A DNA stretch of 64,000 nucleotides from a virus. Each line of letters opens with the position of its first letter. The stretch's first letter is position 1. The notes under the pieces were generated by a model. It was not told the origin of the DNA. It saw only the letters and a list, made by a program, of their open reading frames with translations, and did not search any database. Where the stretch lies: IMG/VR virus record IMGVR_UViG_3300040801_004519, positions 1-64,000 of that record, one strand, 5' to 3'. Made by a program: the position numbers and the translations under genes. Below are positions 32,696 to 61,458 of this stretch, piece by piece.

Positions 32696-35290
32696 ATGGG
32701 TCGAAGGTTCAAGAACGCGGATTTCTGTCACTGCCATTGCCATAGTGAGTACAGCAAGCTGGACGGCTTGCAGAAAATTACCAATATGGTGCTAAAGGCC
32801 CGAGAGATGGGGTTCCCCGCTCTTGCTTTGACTGACCACGGAAACGTAGGTGGTTGGGTAAAATTTATGGCAGAATGTAACCGAAAGAGGGGGAAAGATG
32901 GAGAGGAAATCCCTCATCCAACAATCAAGCCCCTTCTCGGCTGCCTCCTTGGTCATCAAGAAATCATCACAAGCGACGGTATAAAGCCAATTCGCGATAT
33001 CCGCAAGGGTGACTCCGTACTTACGCACAAAGGGCGTTTTCGCAAGGTGGTATACACCATGACGCGAAGGCACAAGGGTAAGGCGTACGAGATTACCACG
33101 TCAGGTGGAGAACATCGCAAGCTAATTGTAACCGATGAGCACCCTATTCTAGTTCGGTCAAATGATGGCCTGATTCAGTGGGTTCAGCCTCCCGAAATAA
33201 AGGATGGTTATGTCTCGAAGAAGCAGGGACTGAGAAAATGGAACTCTTATGTTTGCCTTCCGAAGCTCAAGATGGAAGCCCCGTATACGGTAGACTTCTC
33301 AGAATACCTGCCGGAATTCTTCAGCGTGATCGAGGGTAAAATCACTCGGTCAAAAATATACGGAAAATTTGACTCAGAGAAACATTGGAGTTTTCCAAAT
33401 AATTTCAAGACGAGCAATGACTTTGACCTTGCTTATCTCCTAGGCCTTTACGCCTCCGAGGGAAGTCTTCATCATAATAAGGATGGCAGGCTTTCGGGAG
33501 GGATTGTATTTACATTCTCTATCGAAGAGTCTCACTATGTGAAGGCGGTTCAAGATTGCATGCTAAGCATCTTTGGTCTTCAAGGGGTCGAAAGAGTAAG
33601 AGAGGACAAGAATATCCGAGAGGTCTTGTACAGCAGCGTGCCTGTTGCATATGTTCTTGAAGGTATGTGCGGATCAGGGGCAAAGAACAAGAAGATTCCT
33701 AACTTCATATTAAGTCGAGGTTTTTCCACACAGTGCCAGTTCATTGAAGGACTTCTGGACGGTGATGGAAAAAATGCCGAGAGGAGTACAAATATCAATG
33801 GTCAGAGGACACTTAGAACTGCCTCGCAGCATCTCGCTTGGGGTCTTCGCACTCTTCTTGTTGGAAAGGGTCACTGGGTCGAAGTTGCTAAATATGATGA
33901 AGGCAATAAAACTGTATATACCGTTCCTTTTAATCCAGATAGAAGCTATTCCCGCACACTTGAGGATGACAACTTCCTGTTCAAACCCGTCAAATCGGTT
34001 CGAGAGATCGACCTAGATGATGACGTGTACAACTTTGAAGTTGATGAGGACAACAGCTATGTGAGCGATTTCATTCTTCACAACTGTGAATTCTATTTGG
34101 CACGTCGTCATGAGTGGCATGGTATCAGCAAGATGGGCAAGGGATATAAAGGGCCTAACCTTCAAGAAGACGGTGCCAGAGGTAATCGACATTTTCTTCT
34201 TACAGCAAAAAACTGGATTGGATACCAGAACTTATGTAAGCTTAGTCAAGCATCTTGGACTGACGGATTTTACCGTAATCCAAGAGTTGACGTTGAGCAG
34301 CTTGCTGAACACTCAGAAGGCCTCGTTGCGTCTTCTGCCTGTTTGAGTTCAGTAGTGAATGCAGCGCTTCTCTATGACCGCTATGATGAAGCCAGAAAAG
34401 CAGTCCAAATCTTTAAAGATATCTTCAAGGAAGATTTCTTTATGGAGGTTATGTATCACGGCATTGATGAAGAAGCAGCGATAATACCCGATATTCTAAA
34501 GTTGGGTAAAGAAATGGGCGTTCCTGTAATTGCGACAAACGACAATCATTATCTTGAGAAGCATCAAGCTGAAAGCCAAGAGATTCTCATGGCGATGAAT
34601 ATGAAGAAGTGCGTATTGGACCCCAAAAAGCTTTCTTTCCCTCATCCAGAGTTTTACATGAAGAGTGCCGAGGAGATGGGCAAGATTTTTGGTCATCATC
34701 CTGAAACCATCTATAATACTCGTGCAATCGTTGATAGAATTGATGCGGAAGATATATCCAGGAACATCATGGGTGGCATGAGGCTTCCTAACATTGAGAT
34801 TCCTGAACAGTATAAGTCTCCTTTTGAATACATGGAAAAGCAGGCTTGGCAAGGGTTAAAGAGCTTGGGTTGGGACAAAAGTGAACCGCATGTAAACGCG
34901 CTAAAAAAAGAGATTGCTGATACAAAAGTTGCATTAGACAACAACGGAATGGCTTTCGATAAGTACTTCCTCATTGTTTCCGATTACTTAAAATTTGCAA
35001 AAGATAACGGAATCTTTACAGGTGGAAGTAGGGGGTCGGGTGGTGGAAGCGTTTTACTTAGAACCCTTGATATTACTTACGGGCCAGACCCCCTCAAGTA
35101 TGGCCTCTTGTGGGAGAGGTTCTTAGGATTCGATGATAGGAGGTTCTATAACGCAAGGGACTTTGGTGTTGAAACTGCTGTAGACCTCGCTTCCATCATG
35201 GACCAAGCGGAAGAGAATGCAGAAGAGTTTGAAGATATCGAGGAAGATCGTGAATACGACGACGATCCTGGTGGAGTTGATAGATACTAG
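32696..35290 (+). CDS. dnaE: DNA polymerase III alpha, N-terminal part, with intein
   Basis: 864 aa, of which 381 are an intein. Outside it, the protein starts with a PHP domain (HCHCHSEYSKLDG, LALTDHGNVGG, then LLG|CEFYLA across the intein, IATNDNHYL). It continues into the polymerase palm/thumb start (FDKYFLIVSDYLKFAKDNG, GGSRGSGGGSV, LLWERFLG). It stops at TAG 35288, just before the catalytic aspartate motif, after an acidic tail. The next gene supplies that motif in the same frame 3 bp later. Together they make a normal-length alpha subunit (~1150 aa after splicing). This is the replicative DNA polymerase of the phage. Confidence 0.9.
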   Translation: MGRRFKNADFCHCHCHSEYSKLDGLQKITNMVLKAREMGFPALALTDHGNVGGWVKFMAECNRKRGKDGEEIPHPTIKPLLGCLLGHQEIITSDGIKPIRDIRKGDSVLTHKGRFRKVVYTMTRRHKGKAYEITTSGGEHRKLIVTDEHPILVRSNDGLIQWVQPPEIKDGYVSKKQGLRKWNSYVCLPKLKMEAPYTVDFSEYLPEFFSVIEGKITRSKIYGKFDSEKHWSFPNNFKTSNDFDLAYLLGLYASEGSLHHNKDGRLSGGIVFTFSIEESHYVKAVQDCMLSIFGLQGVERVREDKNIREVLYSSVPVAYVLEGMCGSGAKNKKIPNFILSRGFSTQCQFIEGLLDGDGKNAERSTNINGQRTLRTASQHLAWGLRTLLVGKGHWVEVAKYDEGNKTVYTVPFNPDRSYSRTLEDDNFLFKPVKSVREIDLDDDVYNFEVDEDNSYVSDFILHNCEFYLARRHEWHGISKMGKGYKGPNLQEDGARGNRHFLLTAKNWIGYQNLCKLSQASWTDGFYRNPRVDVEQLAEHSEGLVASSACLSSVVNAALLYDRYDEARKAVQIFKDIFKEDFFMEVMYHGIDEEAAIIPDILKLGKEMGVPVIATNDNHYLEKHQAESQEILMAMNMKKCVLDPKKLSFPHPEFYMKSAEEMGKIFGHHPETIYNTRAIVDRIDAEDISRNIMGGMRLPNIEIPEQYKSPFEYMEKQAWQGLKSLGWDKSEPHVNALKKEIADTKVALDNNGMAFDKYFLIVSDYLKFAKDNGIFTGGSRGSGGGSVLLRTLDITYGPDPLKYGLLWERFLGFDDRRFYNARDFGVETAVDLASIMDQAEENAEEFEDIEEDREYDDDPGGVDRY
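32942..34084 (+). other. Intein with LAGLIDADG homing endonuclease inside dnaE
   Basis: A 381-residue in-frame intein. It begins with Cys at 32942 (CLLGHQEIITSDGIKPI, block A) and has a block B-like VTDEHPIL. It ends with YVSDFILHN followed by Cys+1, giving the His-Asn/Cys chemistry needed for splicing. Two LAGLIDADG-type motifs are present, LAYLLGLYASEGS and FIEGLLDGDGKN, so the intein should carry an active-type homing endonuclease. The insertion point is in the PHP domain between conserved LLG and CEFY. Excision restores KPLLGCEFYLA. Host-gene reading frame is maintained on both sides. Confidence 0.92.
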
Positions 35291-35293
35291 AAG

Positions 35294-37300
35294 ATGACCA
35301 TGAAAGACAATAAAAAAGCACAGGAAATCTGGGCGGCTATTGAGAAGCGTCATCCTGGATTAGATGGCTCTGAACTTGGTGAGAATGTAAAGAACGAACT
35401 CCAATTGGCATCAGAAATTGATGCTACGGGTGGTTCGGGCACAGCACTAGATCAACTTTATGATATCTGGAAATCTTCCAAGGGAAGCGAAGGCAACGAG
35501 AATAAGTCAAACAGTTGGATCGCATACGCCATCGGTTTGACAAGTAAGAAGCCCGAGGGAGATGTTCTTCCCCTCAGGCGTGCCTTTGCCCGCGCTGGTT
35601 TCCCCGATATCGACTCGGACTTTGAAGACGAGCGTCGAGAGGAGGTTGTCGATTATTTGGTTGAAAAATATGGACGCGATAAGGTTAGCAATATTGGGAC
35701 ATACGGAACGCTTGGAGTTCGCAGCGCTCTCCGCTCCCTGGTCAAGCCACTCGACCTTGGTGGGGGATATTACAAAGGCGAAGATTCTTGGACTAAGCTA
35801 AATAAGATCAAGTCAGATGAGATACTAGGGAGCCTTCCGAAGCCTGTTGGTAGCAACATGAAGGTTGAGGGCGAAGATGGAAACACAGTTGTCTTAAAGA
35901 GCGTTGAGGATGCTTATGAACATGTACCAGAGTTTCAGGAATATATGGAGATGCATCCCAAGCTCTTTAAGCACACGAAAGATATTGAGGGTATCACCAA
36001 TAATTTTGGAACGCACGCCTCTGGTATAATTATTGGAGACGTTCCTCTTTGCAACATAGCTCCCGTTCGTCCAGTTGAAAAGAAAACGTGGGATAAAGAG
36101 ACCATAAGTAGCGTATCTACTCAGTTCGCTGGTGAGGATTGCGAAGCTATTGGGTTAATCAAATTTGATATTCTATCGATCAAGCTTTTATCTATTCTGA
36201 AGCATGCCATAAACATGGTCGAGAAGAATTGGGATGTCAAACTCGATATACGGAACTTCCCTCTTGATGATGAAAAGACTTATAAGCTTTATCAAAGTGG
36301 AAAAACTGCTGGGTGTTTTCAGGTAGAGTCTTATGGAATGCAGAAGACTTTAAAGGAGATCGCTCCCGATAAGTTTGAGGATGTCATTGCTGCGATTGCC
36401 TTGTTTCGTCCGGGACCAATGGATAACATCCCATCTTTCGTAAATCGAAAGTTTGGCCGCGAGGACATTAATTATTATCATGGCAACATTGAGCCTCATG
36501 TAAAAAGATATCTAGAGCCAACTTATGGTATTCTGGTTTACCAGGAGCAGATCATGCAGGTCTGCAACGCCCTTGGTGGATTAACTCTTATTGAAGCTTA
36601 TGAGGTAATCAAGGGTGTAGGTAAGAAGAAGCTTGACATCATAGCTAAGTATGAAAAAAAGTTCATCAAGGGCTGCTTGGATAAAGGTGTTCCAGAACAC
36701 ATTGCAAAAGAATACTGGGGAAGCTATGACCCTGTTTCAAAGAAGCTTTCTGGATTCATTCTTCCGTTCGCAAACTACGGCTTCAACAAGAGTCACGCTC
36801 TAGCCTATGCATACAACAGTTATATGACGGTTTTTCTGAAGGCTAACTACCCAGAAGAATTCATGTGTGCCTCCCTGAACGTAGAATCTGAAAGAAAGAA
36901 GTGGAATAAAACGATTATTCTAGAGAAAGACTTGGCTAGATCAAACATAAGCCTCCTGCCAAGGAATATCAATCACTGCGGAATGAGCTATGAGATCGTG
37001 AAGCATGCTTCTGGTAGGAATAGGGGTGAGATAATGCCCTCCCTCCTATGCCAGGGGATGAAGAAGGCTGCTGCTGTTGAGATAGTCAACTCTCGCCCCA
37101 AAGGGGGCTTTAAAGATATTGTCGATTTTGCGACTCGAACATCAACTGATGTGGATTCTGCATCAGTTCAAGCACTAGCAATTGCTGGGTATTTTCCCAA
37201 AGCAAAGCCGAAAGAAATTGTAAAAACATTCGAGACAATTCGATCTGATTTGAAGAAGTGTAATCAGAAGGGCGTCCCTTCTGACGATATGTTTGAATAA
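35294..37300 (+). CDS. dnaE: DNA polymerase III alpha, catalytic and C-terminal part
   Basis: 668 aa in the same frame as the preceding half, separated by one TAG and one AAG codon. The first ~100 residues are a non-conserved linker. Then comes the catalytic motif FPDIDSDF (~residues 103-110) with ERREEVVDYLVEKYG and IGTYGTLGVR, THASGIIIGD, the third-Asp region IKFDILSIK, FRPGPMDNIP and YQEQIMQV. The fingers sequence NYGFNKSHALAYAYNSY and a tandem HhH-like C-terminal region follow. It ends in an acidic SDDMFE tail. No beta-clamp gene is visible. The ribosome-binding site is weak (ggtggag 17 bp upstream), so translation may depend on coupling or on amber readthrough from the first half. Confidence 0.88.
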   Translation: MTMKDNKKAQEIWAAIEKRHPGLDGSELGENVKNELQLASEIDATGGSGTALDQLYDIWKSSKGSEGNENKSNSWIAYAIGLTSKKPEGDVLPLRRAFARAGFPDIDSDFEDERREEVVDYLVEKYGRDKVSNIGTYGTLGVRSALRSLVKPLDLGGGYYKGEDSWTKLNKIKSDEILGSLPKPVGSNMKVEGEDGNTVVLKSVEDAYEHVPEFQEYMEMHPKLFKHTKDIEGITNNFGTHASGIIIGDVPLCNIAPVRPVEKKTWDKETISSVSTQFAGEDCEAIGLIKFDILSIKLLSILKHAINMVEKNWDVKLDIRNFPLDDEKTYKLYQSGKTAGCFQVESYGMQKTLKEIAPDKFEDVIAAIALFRPGPMDNIPSFVNRKFGREDINYYHGNIEPHVKRYLEPTYGILVYQEQIMQVCNALGGLTLIEAYEVIKGVGKKKLDIIAKYEKKFIKGCLDKGVPEHIAKEYWGSYDPVSKKLSGFILPFANYGFNKSHALAYAYNSYMTVFLKANYPEEFMCASLNVESERKKWNKTIILEKDLARSNISLLPRNINHCGMSYEIVKHASGRNRGEIMPSLLCQGMKKAAAVEIVNSRPKGGFKDIVDFATRTSTDVDSASVQALAIAGYFPKAKPKEIVKTFETIRSDLKKCNQKGVPSDDMFE

Positions 37301-54018: not shown

Positions 54019-54058
54019 TGTTGACGAATATGGCACCACTACTCCATGCTCGTCAACA
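54019..54058 (+). promoter_or_regulatory. Hairpin covering the homing endonuclease start codon
   Basis: TGTTGACGA (54019-54027) pairs perfectly with TCGTCAACA (54050-54058), with an inner ATGG/CCAT pair. The start codon at 54046 lies within the structure, so translation from long transcripts could be blocked, as known for T4 homing endonuclease genes. Confidence 0.5.
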
Positions 54059-54882
54059 AAAAATATACTATTGGTAGAAATGGTCAGATCGCATCCAGGG
54101 AGAGGGTTACTGTTTCCTGTGACTCAGATAACTGTAATTCGGAATGGTGTACGCAATATAGTAACTACAAGAGACGCAAGTGCTCTAAGGATTATTGCCA
54201 GTCTTGTAAGAACAGAATAGGCATATGTGGGATGAAAGGCAAGTCTCATTCAGCAGAAACAAAGGAAAAGGCATCGATTCGAAGCTCGGGTAAAAGAAAC
54301 CCCTTCTATGGAAAAAAACATACACAAGATGTAAAGAGTCGAATATCAAAACACCCTAACGTAAAGTCTATGAAGGGAAAGAAACGTCCTGAACACAGTA
54401 AGAAAATGAAAGAGGTTATTACGTCTTACTGGAAGGGACTTACGGAAGAAGAAAGAGCTTCGAGGCTTGCAAAACATGATTTTTCTGCTTTACAAAAAGC
54501 TTGCCTCTGCAATGGTGGAAGGTATTCAAAGCTCCATAAGTCAGTAATTTTGATGATGAACGAGGTTGGAATCGATAGGTTTGAATCTGAAAAGCAGATC
54601 GGTCGATATGTATATGACGAGGTACGAGAGGATAAGAAAGTCATCATTGAGGTCAATGGTGACTTTTGGCACGCGAACCCCAATATTTACGCTGAAGAAG
54701 ATGTTGTTAGGTTGCCAAAGGGTGACAAGATTGCGAGAGAGATTTGGAACAGCGATAAATTAAGGGTTTCTTATGCTCAGGAGCTTGGATACAAAGTGTT
54801 CATAATTTGGGAATCGGATGTAAAGTCAGGAAAAGTTTTTGACAAATTGAAAGGCATAAATGAAAAAATACGAAAATTATAA
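54046..54882 (+). CDS. Free-standing NUMOD3 / Vsr-like (EDxHD-type) homing endonuclease
   Basis: 278 aa. The N-terminal part has cysteines (CDSDNCNSEWC, CSKDYCQSC) that may bind zinc. Repeated NUMOD3-type motifs follow (GMKGKSHSAETKEKAS, GKRNPFYGKKHT, MKGKKRPEHSKKMKE). The C-terminal ~110 residues resemble Vsr-fold nucleases: FESEKQIGRYVYD, VIIEVNGDFWHANP, then KLRVSYAQELGYKVFIIWESDV. This combination is known from EDxHD homing endonucleases of phages. The gene ends 23 bp inside neuB in another frame. It has separated a remnant neuB start from the functional copy. Confidence 0.8.
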   Translation: MLVNKKYTIGRNGQIASRERVTVSCDSDNCNSEWCTQYSNYKRRKCSKDYCQSCKNRIGICGMKGKSHSAETKEKASIRSSGKRNPFYGKKHTQDVKSRISKHPNVKSMKGKKRPEHSKKMKEVITSYWKGLTEEERASRLAKHDFSALQKACLCNGGRYSKLHKSVILMMNEVGIDRFESEKQIGRYVYDEVREDKKVIIEVNGDFWHANPNIYAEEDVVRLPKGDKIAREIWNSDKLRVSYAQELGYKVFIIWESDVKSGKVFDKLKGINEKIRKL

Positions 54883-55753
54883 AAAGGCAAAAGTGGTTGC
54901 AGAAATATCTGCAAACCACATGGGTTCTATTGATACAGCAATAGAAATGATTCGCGTTGCTGCTGAATGCGGAGCAGATGTTGTTAAGTTCCAGAAGAGA
55001 AACCCAAAGGAATCGGTAAGCAGCGATTTATATACAAAACCACATCCTGTTCCTGGTAATTCATTTGGGAAGACATATGGTGAGCATCGAGAGTTTCTTG
55101 AGCTTTCTATTGGCGATCACGAACGACTCATGAGAGAATGTGAGTCGTCGGGAGTTGACTACAGCACAAGCGTTTGGGATGTGACAAGTGCAAGAGACAT
55201 TGTTAAGCTAAATCCGAAATATATTAAGGTGCCCTCGGCCTGCAATACGAACGATAAATTGCTCCGAAGCATTGTAGATTCCTTTGACGGTGAGGTTCAC
55301 GTTTCTTTGGGTATGACAACATTTGACGAAATTGATAAGATCGAAGTTGTCCTGTCGGACGTTTTATCTGAAAATTTAGTTTATTACCATTGTACTAGTG
55401 GATACCCAGTGCCAAATAACAAGCTTTATCTCAATGAAATATCTGAACTTCGCTATCGTTTTCCAGCACATCCCATTGGGTTTTCTGGGCATCATGTTGG
55501 TACTGCTCCAGACGTTGCCGCGTACGTGCTTGGTGCTGGATGGATAGAGCGACATTTCACCCTTGACCGCACACTCAAAGGTACTGATCACGCTGCCAGT
55601 CTTGATCCATCTGGACTTCGTACGCTGTGTAAAGACTTGAACGACGTGCATGAGGCAATGCGATACAAGCCTTCTGTTATGGACGAGATCGAAGTTCAGC
55701 AAAGGATGAAGCTAAAGTACTTTGAATTTCGTGAATTCCTCCAGAATAGCTAG
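54860..55753 (+). CDS. neuB: Nonulosonic acid synthase (NeuB-like)
   Basis: 297 aa. It has VVAEISANHMGS at the start, ADVVKFQKRNP, STSVWDVTSA, YIKVPSACNTND, HVSLGMTT, YYHCTSGYP, IGFSGHHVG and the IERHFTLDRTLKGTDHAASL region. These are the TIM-barrel motifs that condense phosphoenolpyruvate with ManNAc, ManNAc-6-P or mannose-6-P. It lacks the ~60-residue C-terminal SAF/antifreeze-like domain of bacterial NeuB, so it is a shorter form. Its 5' end is supplied by sequence next to the homing endonuclease, while a diverged original start survives at 53931. The presence of a phosphatase next door suggests the 9-phosphate pathway. Confidence 0.85.
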   Translation: MKKYENYKKAKVVAEISANHMGSIDTAIEMIRVAAECGADVVKFQKRNPKESVSSDLYTKPHPVPGNSFGKTYGEHREFLELSIGDHERLMRECESSGVDYSTSVWDVTSARDIVKLNPKYIKVPSACNTNDKLLRSIVDSFDGEVHVSLGMTTFDEIDKIEVVLSDVLSENLVYYHCTSGYPVPNNKLYLNEISELRYRFPAHPIGFSGHHVGTAPDVAAYVLGAGWIERHFTLDRTLKGTDHAASLDPSGLRTLCKDLNDVHEAMRYKPSVMDEIEVQQRMKLKYFEFREFLQNS

Positions 55754-55789: not shown

Positions 55790-56422
55790 ATGATGACATA
55801 TTATAACACCAACAGCAACACGGTCTCGACTGTAAGGCCAAGCTCGATTGAAAATAGGCCTCGTCAAAGCATGGGTTACAGTATGTCTCCCATGCCCTTG
55901 AAGAATCAGGATAAAAGATACAAGATAATTGTTGTTGATGTTGATGGAACGATGACAAATGGTCATATGACCTATGACCACCAGGGAAACGTCAGCAAGA
56001 GTTATCATACCAGAGATATCTCAGGATTGTATAAGGCAAGATTTGAAGAAGACACACGAGTCTTGATCCTCACCGGTTCACTTCATGAATGTGACATTCA
56101 TCGCTTTCGATTCCTTTGGGAGTTTGCACGGGAGGAAACAGATGCATGTCTTCTCCAGGGTGTTCAAAACAAATCTTCTGTCCTTGGTATATATCTTGAA
56201 AAACATAAGATTAAATGGGATGAAGTTGCATTTATTGGTGATGGCGATAACGACCTTGAGGTTATGCCAAAAGTAGGTCTTGCTGGTTGCCCGCGTGATG
56301 CACTTCCAGAAGTCTGGGATATTTGCACTTTCCATTCAAAATTTGATGGCGGGAAAGGTGCAGTTAAAGAATTTGTAGATTTTGTTTCCAGACTCAACAA
56401 GCTACACAGAAAAGGAAGATAA
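55790..56422 (+). CDS. HAD-family phosphatase, KdsC/NulO-9-phosphatase-like
   Basis: 210 aa. After an unusual N-terminal extension of ~42 residues the core begins KIIVVDVDGTMTNG, the HAD nucleophile motif of KdsC-like C0 enzymes. It continues with VLILTGS and IGDGDNDLEVMPKVGL. In the sialic acid pathway such enzymes remove the 9-phosphate from KDN-9-P or Neu5Ac-9-P. The start is uncertain: ATGs at 55871 and 55883 would trim the extension. It sits 36 bp after neuB, and its stop overlaps the pilin-like gene start (TAATG). Confidence 0.8.
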   Translation: MMTYYNTNSNTVSTVRPSSIENRPRQSMGYSMSPMPLKNQDKRYKIIVVDVDGTMTNGHMTYDHQGNVSKSYHTRDISGLYKARFEEDTRVLILTGSLHECDIHRFRFLWEFAREETDACLLQGVQNKSSVLGIYLEKHKIKWDEVAFIGDGDNDLEVMPKVGLAGCPRDALPEVWDICTFHSKFDGGKGAVKEFVDFVSRLNKLHRKGR

Positions 56423-56790
56423 TGAAAAAGGCTTTTACACTAGTCGAACTCCTTGTATGCATTGGGATAATCGCATTAGTGATTTCTCTTTTGCTTTCTG
56501 CTATGAGTAGTAGAAGTGACTATGAACGAGATATTTTTGATGCATCTGTCGTCAATAAGCACTCTTATCATGATGATTACGGCCATGAAGTGAATGAAAT
56601 CACTGTTCAGACTCCCGATGGTGCCAAGCAGACCTTCGTAGTGAGAGACAGAGAAGAGTGGGACGATTTTCAAATCGGATATCTTTATGACGTTTCCGTA
56701 GGAGGAAGAGGCTACCTTAAAGAATATACAGAAATCGGCTCAGACGCCGATTTGAATGGCGAAAAGAAAATCACAGATTCATCTTTTTGA
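56422..56790 (+). CDS. Prepilin-type membrane-anchored protein
   Basis: 122 aa. The N-terminus KKAFTLVELLVCIGIIALV is a textbook type IV prepilin/pseudopilin signal: cleavage after Ala, Phe+1, Glu+5, then a hydrophobic helix. The remainder is a small beta domain. It should be recognised by a host prepilin peptidase and anchored in the inner membrane or built into a pilus-like structure. It is a paralogue of the next gene (shared pattern HEVNEITVQ / HRIHEIYVF and a C-terminal KEYTEI / KYKEI). It starts inside the phosphatase stop. Confidence 0.7.
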   Translation: MKKAFTLVELLVCIGIIALVISLLLSAMSSRSDYERDIFDASVVNKHSYHDDYGHEVNEITVQTPDGAKQTFVVRDREEWDDFQIGYLYDVSVGGRGYLKEYTEIGSDADLNGEKKITDSSF

Positions 56791-57097
56791 GTTATTTGCG
56801 GTCGTGTGTATCGTCATGGGCTTAGTTCTATACTTTGTCCAACAAACAAACGTCACACGGTTTACAACAGAAGTCTTTCGTGCCAAAGTTATTACTAAAT
56901 CAAGCTGGATTCATGAAAGTCAGAGAATACATGAAATTTATGTCTTCAGAACTGATGAGAGCAAAGAAGTTCTATGGATTAATGCGAGATTTGACTGGAT
57001 TTCACTAAACAAAGGTTCAACTTATGAGTTTACAGCAACTCAAGATGGAAGAGTAGTGAAGTATAAAGAAATCAAAAATGAGAAGGAAGATAGTTGA
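56756..57097 (+). CDS. Membrane-anchored paralogue of the pilin-like protein
   Basis: 113 aa. The N-terminus QIHLFELFAVVCIVMGLVL is a single transmembrane helix with a degenerate pilin-like start (Glu retained near position 5). The soluble beta domain matches the upstream protein in order of elements (AKVITKSSW, IHEIYVF, VLWINARFDW, YEFTATQDGRVVKYKEI). It overlaps that gene by 35 bp. The function is unknown; with its partner it may form a small envelope complex. Confidence 0.6.
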   Translation: MAKRKSQIHLFELFAVVCIVMGLVLYFVQQTNVTRFTTEVFRAKVITKSSWIHESQRIHEIYVFRTDESKEVLWINARFDWISLNKGSTYEFTATQDGRVVKYKEIKNEKEDS

Positions 57098-57138: not shown

Positions 57139-57538
57139 GGGCACGAAACTAGGATATCGACTGGTAGATTAGAGTTGACGTTGCATGCCGAGGATGCTAA
57201 CTAGGCCTCGTAAATCATGTTAGCAAAACCCATAACTGCCAACAACGCAGTTGCTGGCCGTATCGGCTTTGCCGCTCCGGTCGCACTCGCAGCCTAAAGA
57301 ACTGTGAGAAGACCAGCCCAGAAGGGCTGAAACGAATCGGTGAAAATCCCACGAGAACCGATTCGTCTGACTAGTGGGATAAGCAATTTTCTTGTCATGA
57401 AGGTTGTCGAAAAACTTGACTCGGCCAGGATGAGGTTGCTGTTTCTTTGCACCTGGTTTAAACTAATGAAGCAGATAAGCATGTAGAAGCGTTAATTGCG
57501 ATCTATACAACACGGCGGTTCGAGTCCGCCCGTGTCCA
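57139..57538 (+). ncRNA. ssrA: tmRNA (ssrA)
   Basis: A complete transfer-messenger RNA. The 5' end GGGCACG pairs with CGTGTCC at the 3' end in a 7-bp acceptor stem, including the G3-U70 wobble that marks alanine charging. The discriminator is A57538 and CCA is not encoded. The T-arm is GGCGGTTCGAGTCCGCC. The tag frame starts at GCC 57238 and reads ANNAVAGRIGFAAPVALAA, then TAA 57295-57297. The LAA end is the usual protease signal, and an A sits at -4 from the resume codon as in bacterial tmRNAs. It would need host SmpB and AlaRS. A strong terminator follows. The 41 bp before it show no clear sigma-70 promoter. Confidence 0.95.
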
Positions 57539-57545
57539 CTAAGAG

Positions 57546-57571
57546 GCCTCGATGAAAATCGAGGCTTTTTT
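57546..57571 (+). terminator. Rho-independent terminator of the tmRNA gene
   Basis: GCCTCGA and TCGAGGC form a perfect 7-bp stem with a TGAAAA loop, directly followed by six T residues. It begins 8 bp after the tmRNA 3' end. Confidence 0.92.
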
Positions 57572-59442: not shown

Positions 59443-61458
59443 ATGAGTAAGTATTTAGTAGTAATCGAGTCTCCAGGTAAGTTAAAATCATACCGTAAGT
59501 ATCTCGGCCCTGATTACGAGATAGTAGCATCTGTCGGACACGTAATGGATTTACCTCCCAAGGGTGGTCTTGGTGTAAACATCAAAAAGCAATTCGAACC
59601 TACATTCGAGGTCATGGACGACAAGAAGCAGGTTCTGAGTGATATAGTGAAAAAAGCCAAGAAGTCAAAACTCACTTATCTTATGATGGACCCTGATCGT
59701 GAAGGTACTGGAATTGCCGCTATGATAGCGAGTCAGTTTCCGAAAAGCGTAAAGTATACTCGGGCTGCAACATCGTCTATTACTAAAAAAGATATCGAAG
59801 AAGCAATATCTAATTCTGGTGATATTGATCAAAAAATGTATGATGCCTTTTTGGCTCGAAGAATTCTGGATAGGATTGCCGGTTTCAAGACTTCTTTTCT
59901 TGTAAAGCAGGCTACAGGTGGTCGGAGCGCTGGCAGAGTTCAATCCGCTGCCCTACGAATTCTAGCTGAAAGAGAAAAGGAAATTGCGGAGTTTAAGCCT
60001 CAAGAGTTTTGGCCTGTTGATGCAGACTTGAAGACAACTAGGAATGACATCGTTACGGCTCATGTTATAGAGCCAGACAAGATGGACACGAAGACCGAAG
60101 ATGATGCCAAAGAAGTTGTTGGCGTTATTGAGAAGGGGCCTGTTAAGGTTGAGAAATATGATGTTAAAGAAGTTTCTCGTCGTCCCCAACCCCCATTCAT
60201 CACATCTTCTCTGCAAGCGACAGCATCATCTATGCTAGGCTGGAACCAAAAGAAAACCATGGGTGTTGCCCAGAAGCTTTATGAAGCGGGCCATATCACT
60301 TACATGCGAACGGACTCTGCATATATCGTACCAGATAAGGTCAAGGAAATCCGTTCTGCGATTGAAGACAGGTGGAACAAGAAATTTTTGCCTGATAAAG
60401 AGAACGCATTCAAAAAGGGAAAGAATGCCCAGGAGGCCCACGAGTGTATTCGACCAACCGATCTAAACATTGAGACTGCTGGCTCTGTCGGAGATGAAGC
60501 CAAGCTCTACAAGATGATTTGGAAGCGGACCATAGCAAGTCAGATGCTCCCAGAGAAACGGGAGCAGGTTCGAGCAGTATTTAAGGCTGGCAAGGTCAGA
60601 TTGGCTGCGTCAGGTTCAAGGCAGACGTTCGAGGGGTGGAAAGCGTGCTGGGACTATAGGGATGCATCAGACACCTTTCTTCCTGAAATGAAGGTTGGAG
60701 AGAAGGTAACCGTTGAAGATGTCCGCTATGAGCAGAAGTTTACCGAACCGCCTCCCCGATATGGCGTAGCAAGTTTCAACAGTAAACTCGAAGAAGTTGG
60801 ACTTGGAAGGCCTTCAACCCTCGCTGCAATCATTGATACATTACGCGCGAGAGAATATATCGAAAATGACAGCAAGACGCACAAGGTCACTGATCTTGGT
60901 ATGAGGGTGACAGATTTTCTTGTAAAGAACAACTTTTGCTTTGCTGATGTTAAATTTACAAGGGAGATGGAGGATAAGCTTGACAGTGTGCTTGAGGGTA
61001 AAACTCAGAAGCTTGATATCTTAAATGATTTCTGGACAAGGTTAAAGTCTGATATAGCAAGCGCCAAAGAGAACAAAGATAAGTTAAGCCGAACAGAGTA
61101 TCCATGTCCACTTTGCAAGAAGGCAAATCGTGAAAAGTTCTTGCAAAGAAAATTCTCATCCTTTGGTGAGTTTTATGCATGCGAAGCTCGCACTGATAAA
61201 GAGATTAAGTGTGATTACAAAGCTGATGTCGGTGATTCTGGGGAACCAAAGGAAAAGCCGAAGAAAGAGCCTCCAAAGAAGAGCGGAATAGATTGCCCTG
61301 AATGTGGTGGAGACTTGGTTATAAGAAGTGGCAAATTTGGGGAATTCTTGGGTTGCAATAAATTTCCTAAGTGTCGCGTGACTGCTGACATGGAAGGCAA
61401 TATTAAGAAGCCTTCTAAAGGTAAGGGTAAAAAGTTCTACAAAAAGAGTAATAAATAG
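59443..61458 (+). CDS. topA: Type IA DNA topoisomerase I
   Basis: 671 aa. The TOPRIM domain opens with YLVVIESPGKLKSYRKYLG and carries the metal motif MDPDREGTGIA. The catalytic tyrosine is Y287 in ITYMRTDSAY. The signature FYKT-type stretch and LGRPSTLAAIIDTL follow. The C-terminus has two zinc-finger-like units (YPCPLCKK...YAC, and IDCPECGGDLVIR...GCNKFPKCR) and a Lys-rich tail. It relaxes negative supercoils during phage replication. Slightly shorter than bacterial TopA because it has fewer zinc units. A terminator and a promoter lie just upstream, so it probably starts a new transcript. Confidence 0.95.
   Translation: MSKYLVVIESPGKLKSYRKYLGPDYEIVASVGHVMDLPPKGGLGVNIKKQFEPTFEVMDDKKQVLSDIVKKAKKSKLTYLMMDPDREGTGIAAMIASQFPKSVKYTRAATSSITKKDIEEAISNSGDIDQKMYDAFLARRILDRIAGFKTSFLVKQATGGRSAGRVQSAALRILAEREKEIAEFKPQEFWPVDADLKTTRNDIVTAHVIEPDKMDTKTEDDAKEVVGVIEKGPVKVEKYDVKEVSRRPQPPFITSSLQATASSMLGWNQKKTMGVAQKLYEAGHITYMRTDSAYIVPDKVKEIRSAIEDRWNKKFLPDKENAFKKGKNAQEAHECIRPTDLNIETAGSVGDEAKLYKMIWKRTIASQMLPEKREQVRAVFKAGKVRLAASGSRQTFEGWKACWDYRDASDTFLPEMKVGEKVTVEDVRYEQKFTEPPPRYGVASFNSKLEEVGLGRPSTLAAIIDTLRAREYIENDSKTHKVTDLGMRVTDFLVKNNFCFADVKFTREMEDKLDSVLEGKTQKLDILNDFWTRLKSDIASAKENKDKLSRTEYPCPLCKKANREKFLQRKFSSFGEFYACEARTDKEIKCDYKADVGDSGEPKEKPKKEPPKKSGIDCPECGGDLVIRSGKFGEFLGCNKFPKCRVTADMEGNIKKPSKGKGKKFYKKSNK

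Follow-up and report, generated by a model that had tools for sequence, protein, structure and literature searches.

The first 64,000 nt (positions 1–64000, hereafter the window) of a 133,230-bp IMG/VR virus record, possibly a fragment, carry a complete one-piece tmRNA (ssrA) gene in which every sequence-level feature of a working tmRNA that we tested for is present. It is a further, divergent case of a known phenomenon, the phage-borne tmRNA, and it is likely to be functional and to work by ordinary trans-translation.

A complete one-piece tmRNA gene

ARAGORN calls a tmRNA at 57139–57539 (+), the sole gene it finds in the window, and Infernal with Rfam 15 aligns the same locus, at 57139–57541 (+), to positions 1–374 of the 374-position RF00023 model with 118.1 bits (E = 1.6e-45), well over the gathering score of 47. 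RF00023 is the only family that reaches its gathering threshold in the window, and this tmRNA is the only one within the record. An initial annotation made from the letters had proposed a complete tmRNA among phage genes, and the two programs, the helices, the terminator, and the phage genes on its flanks all bear that proposal out.

Because the RF00023 covariance model does not score pseudoknots, the helices were checked singly, base by base (Table 1). The acceptor stem and the T-stem pair throughout (7/7 and 5/5), the former including the G3–U70 pair and the T-arm carrying TTCGA, so that the tRNA-like end is as first described. For P2, three segments of 6 bp each can be drawn (6/6 + 6/6 + 6/6), and for P5, 4 + 7 bp; an additional 6-bp hairpin lies at 57314–57329. 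All four pseudoknots can be drawn. The significance of PK1, PK2, and PK4 was judged by simple composition shuffles: PK1 is reached in 2 of 500 shuffles and PK2 in none of 300, so that both are clearly strong and well above chance, while PK3 and PK4 are drawable but weaker, with PK4 reached in 72 of 300 shuffles and not distinctive by itself.

UAACU precedes the tag frame, in agreement with the upstream context known in other tmRNAs. The 3′ end reads CCA CUA, with CUA following A73; as no CCA is encoded there, it must be added, and the function of the tmRNA depends on a CCA-adding enzyme. The terminator claimed in the initial annotation is also present, as a hairpin with a U-run, and it is absent from the list returned by our consensus scanner. 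A consensus scan upstream of the tmRNA gave no promoter above chance.

Table 1 Coordinates of the tmRNA gene, its parts, and other genes of the window.
Feature	Position	Strand	Basis or remark
DnaE-type polymerase III alpha, split in two genes	32696–35290 and 35294–37300		
NUMOD3 homing-endonuclease-like gene	54046–54882		Upstream of tmRNA
NeuB	54860–55753		Upstream of tmRNA; homologue in matching place of G001
HAD hydrolase	55790–56422		Upstream of tmRNA; homologue in matching place of G001
122-aa gene, type IV pilin-like N-terminal methylation motif	56422–56790		Pfam N_methyl, 24.4 bits; upstream of tmRNA
Gene without assigned function	56756–57097		Upstream of tmRNA
One-piece tmRNA (ssrA) gene	57139–57541	+	ARAGORN; RF00023 over full model length
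Acceptor stem, 5′ strand GGGCACG	57139–57145	+	Pairs with CGTGTCC 57531–57537; includes G3–U70 (57141–57535), alanine identity pair
PK1 (CGAGG/CCTCG + TGCTAAC/GTTAGCA)	57189–57225	+	5/5 + 7/7 pairs
Tag reading frame	57238–57297	+	Resume codon GCC, ANNAVAGRIGFAAPVALAA, stop TAA; ARAGORN and translation
PK2, 9 bp + 6 bp	57333–57379	+	Base-by-base check
PK3, 9 bp + 4 bp	57383–57420	+	Base-by-base check; second stem weak
PK4, 5 bp + 7 bp	57425–57474	+	Base-by-base check
T-arm, 3′ acceptor strand, A73 then CUA	57514–57541	+	Base-by-base check; CCA not encoded
Intrinsic terminator, 11-bp hairpin + T run	57543–57571	+	Hairpin 57543–57568, −17.2 kcal/mol, z −7.0
Phage-type topoisomerase I	59443–61458		1.9 kb downstream of tmRNA; small unknown genes between

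The tag and its bacterial counterparts

The tag, ANNAVAGRIGFAAPVALAA, is 19 residues long and ends in a hydrophobic ...VALAA, and tagging would lengthen a protein by 20 residues, the 19 encoded ones and the charged Ala. Its description as lacking charged residues is right for acidic ones, there being no D or E, but not overall, as one Arg is present. Nor does its length, at first taken as unusual, prove to be so: it is ordinary for Patescibacteria, whose tags have a median of 21 residues (range 8–32, n = 73; a sample of mostly higher-scoring loci, ARAGORN having missed some others), and is near the 16 residues of cyanobacterial tags. The medians are 10 for enterobacterial-type control tags and 9 for Armatimonadota (n = 30), with one D/E-free, K/R-bearing case among the latter. 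Thirty-six of the 73 Patescibacteria tags are D/E-free, and K or R is present in 29 of those 36; examples of Patescibacteria tags are ANKAFSGLRFAPALA, AKTFASRVASAFRVNVFAPAVA, and ATSFVNKVKLGLLNFAPVAA. Two cyanobacterial-type tags from viral contigs (ANNIVPFARKAAPVAA and ANNIVSFSRQAAPVAA) score against the phage tag about as well as the best Patescibacteria tags. Judged by the long tags of the sampled Patescibacteria and these similarly scoring cyanobacterial-type ones, the phage tag belongs to a familiar long type; long, acid-free tags are easily mistaken for oddities and are common in Patescibacteria. The proposal that tagged proteins might be redirected finds no support, ...ALAA at the C-terminus being the usual proteolysis signal.

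No match to the tag, as an exact or a relaxed pattern, was found among 84,980 bacterial and archaeal genomes. A pattern spanning PK1 to the tag matched two genomes of this collection, one of Ca. Zipacnadia in Armatimonadota, with the tag ANNQVALAA, and one of Ca. Liptonbacteria in the phylum Patescibacteria, with the tag ANNKVAAPAFAYV.

The phage gene shares the architecture of the bacterial one-piece tmRNA described by RF00023 (e.g., E. coli ssrA), with a tRNA-like domain bearing G3–U70, a long P2, PK1, the tag frame, P5, and PK2–PK4, and it differs in its long D/E-free tag, its extra hairpin, its unencoded CCA, and its location in a phage. Patescibacteria tmRNAs resemble it in having a gene of ~400 nt and long Ala-rich tags, often with K or R and with FAPxxA-type ends. 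Some Patescibacteria tRNA-Ala and tmRNA genes come close to matching the phage T-arm and 3′ acceptor strand, whereas the remaining phage sequence is not clearly nearer to this phylum than to other groups. With blastn, 380 Patescibacteria genomes yielded matches mainly to this same part of the gene, mostly from tRNA-Ala and from a few tmRNAs, and 251 Armatimonadota genomes yielded few matches, located elsewhere in the gene. Cyanobacterial tags such as ANNIVPFARKAAPVAA are also alike, beginning with ANN, V, and R, followed by AAPVA; however, the acceptor stem of cyanobacterial tmRNAs is GGGGCCG rather than GGGCACG, the phage tag ends in ALAA, and the cyanobacterial-type viral examples that we found are mostly in two pieces. 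A tmRNA tree places the phage sequence, as a long branch, among those of Patescibacteria and next to the single cyanobacterial-type sequence included; global tmRNA similarity does not separate the groups. These likenesses suggest a Patescibacteria or cyanobacterial host. If the host belongs to Patescibacteria, the record would represent a large phage from a phylum whose phages are poorly known.

A second tmRNA occurs on a separate contig in two of the Patescibacteria genome bins (L234, G145:C16, 11.5 kb; and L235, G118:C5). The one on L234 has an acidic tag, AKEKPLYVEDLLELWGLDKELEESLV, that does not end in AA, and DNA methyltransferase genes are found on the same contig, which may represent a mobile element or may simply be stray.

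tmRNAs in other phages

One survey found a tmRNA in 402 of 18,146 phage genomes (2.3%; PMC9004378), older lists of phage tmRNAs include mycobacteriophages and phage G (PMC4131195), and huge phages carry both tmRNA and SmpB (PMC7162821). The statement that such genes are rare in phages is thus loosely correct, 2.3% being uncommon, but the phenomenon is well known, and among 26 viral records with a DnaE-type polymerase related to the one here, 6 carry full tmRNAs above the Rfam threshold, so that the trait recurs. The tags of those six (AENDLRLAA, DETVHALAA, DKTNFAMAA in two, ATPAYALAA, and DETVLSLAA) all differ from that of the present phage and all end in AA. In the two records that share DKTNFAMAA (L176 and L177, in G006 and G007), the tmRNA immediately precedes the gene for the DnaE-type polymerase; because it occupies another site here, separate acquisitions are suggested. 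Blastn of the tmRNA against 50,697 INPHARED phage records gave no significant match, and a search of viral contigs for the same acceptor-stem pattern found none.

Complete tmRNAs in large genomes are likewise known from the Mycobacterium phages Bxz1, Cali, and Wildcat, from the Bacillus phage G, from the OM43 phage Melnitz, and from huge phages (PMC4131195, PMC9004378, PMC7162821). The Melnitz tmRNA is in two pieces and under a glutamine riboswitch, unlike the one-piece gene described here, and some of the huge phages also carry SmpB, whereas the present record does not. To this set the gene adds one divergent, structurally complete member.

Genomic setting and proposed function

The tmRNA gene lies in the phage genome and not in flanking host DNA, as shown by the virus record itself, by the upstream synteny with a related phage, and by the phage-type replication genes found on both sides of it in the record. 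Its main flanking genes are closely spaced on the + strand, and elsewhere the window encodes a DnaE-type polymerase, a DnaB-like helicase, a UvsX-like recombinase, and further helicases. No near relatives of the topoisomerase I were confirmed in viral contigs. The closest relative that we found, G001, is a 92-kb fragment (GC ~34% vs 43%) that is colinear with positions 250–56422 of the window save for small differences, the synteny ending ~0.7 kb upstream of the tmRNA. No tmRNA was found in this 92-kb fragment. Since G001 has none and its synteny ends just before the locus, the gene was probably gained or lost within the phage group, to which it may not be essential.

Such a history would also suit a passenger, a host gene recently captured or left behind by integration beside ssrA and without function for the phage, and ssrA is a common integration site of genomic islands (PMC11915505). 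We nevertheless regard this as unlikely, as the phage has a full gene with its own terminator within a colinear phage region, no integrase was recognized among the neighboring genes scanned, and the long branch, far from all tmRNAs compared, together with an intact structure argues for long maintenance. Integrating elements, moreover, usually carry just a 3′ piece of ssrA.

That the frame is intact and the helices remain complementary in so divergent a sequence suggests that function has been maintained, and from the sequence we infer how the tmRNA would be expressed, charged, and used with SmpB, how its products would be degraded, and what the phage would gain. It would be transcribed during infection, and host enzymes would then process it and add CCA; host AlaRS would charge it with alanine via G3–U70. 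No SmpB gene was found anywhere in the 133,230-bp record, or in the six tmRNA-bearing relatives, which extends the earlier remark that no smpB was visible to the whole record and means that host SmpB would have to serve. Host SmpB would bind the phage tmRNA, and the complex would enter ribosomes stalled at broken mRNA ends, where the template would be swapped to the tmRNA frame at GCC 57238 and A-ANNAVAGRIGFAAPVALAA added. The ribosome would be released at UAA, and the ...LAA end would direct the tagged product to host tag-recognizing proteases. The likeliest benefit to the phage would be ribosome recycling sustained while mRNAs decay during infection.

Instead, the molecule could serve mainly to compete, by titrating host SmpB or by taking the place of the host tmRNA, and thereby alter the tag that is added or damp host trans-translation. 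Such a role has been proposed for forms reduced to the tRNA-like domain, among them that of mycobacteriophage DS6A, which has little else; inhibition of tmRNA by a similar molecule, perhaps through SmpB titration, is known (PMC4131195). A phage without its own SmpB must compete for that of the host. However, a decoy would have no need of the mRNA-like part with its frame, stop codon, and pseudoknots, all of which are intact here, and this makes a mainly competitive role quite improbable. An assembly chimera, with a bacterial ssrA stretch joined to phage sequence, is imaginable for a metagenomic contig but extremely improbable here, given main flanking genes closely spaced on one strand, upstream genes syntenic with G001 to 56422, and phage-type replication genes on both sides.

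An amber-anticodon tRNA, a protease, and other genes

The record contains a single tRNA, a complete-looking one with a CUA (amber) anticodon at record positions 98207–98281 (L122:19207–19281), which ARAGORN labels tRNA-Pyl and which scores 33.2 bits with the Rfam tRNA model against a cut-off of 29. Beyond it by 1.9 kb, at 100153–102210 of the record (L123:2153–4210), lies a gene for a 685-aa AAA+/M41 protease that joins a Clp/ClpB-type (Clp/Hsp100) AAA region (ClpB_D2-small) to an FtsH-type M41 zinc peptidase (HEAGH). Its relatives in phage records are partial matches only, and none was confirmed in viral contigs. Stop-codon readthrough is known to produce non-stop ribosomes (PMC6207430), so that a link between the CUA tRNA and the tmRNA is conceivable. 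A translation clean-up pathway of the phage's own, with the CUA tRNA reading through UAG and the AAA+/M41 protease degrading the products tagged by the tmRNA, is in our view a long shot, and these genes pose the question whether a phage ever supplies both a tag and a tag-reading protease. Amber-anticodon tRNAs without obvious targets occur in other phages, such as phage Summit (PMC9022506).

Two explanations for the CUA tRNA were rejected. Reassignment of TAG, or adaptation to its suppression, is at odds with the stops in use: TAG closes 25 of the 116 phage genes, and back-up stops are not in excess behind it. As for UAG readthrough of the DNA polymerase, the DnaE halves are in frame across the TAG at 35288–35290, yet this TAG is a true gene end and the halves are two genes, since in G001 the first half closes on an identical GGVDRY-stop and is followed by a separate gene, for a protease, before the second half. 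The first DnaE gene of the present phage holds an intein with a LAGLIDADG domain at about residues 83–463. In the relative L127, DnaE is split at the same place, with a ClpP-like head-maturation-type protease gene (L127:9277–9924) between the halves, and the second half holds an intein-like insert.

Near the AAA+/M41 protease is an SPFH/Band 7 gene (L123:6749–7951). The same phage also encodes a Ro60/TROVE protein with a vWA domain (L123:11282–12997), to which similar actinophage genes show ~42% identity, a protein with a PARP catalytic domain and a WGR domain (L123:15183–16481), and an RNA ligase (L122:4184–5308). A 1915-aa protein with several HINT/intein-like domains (PT-HINT, Hint, and Intein_splicing) is encoded at L124:2081–7828 (−).
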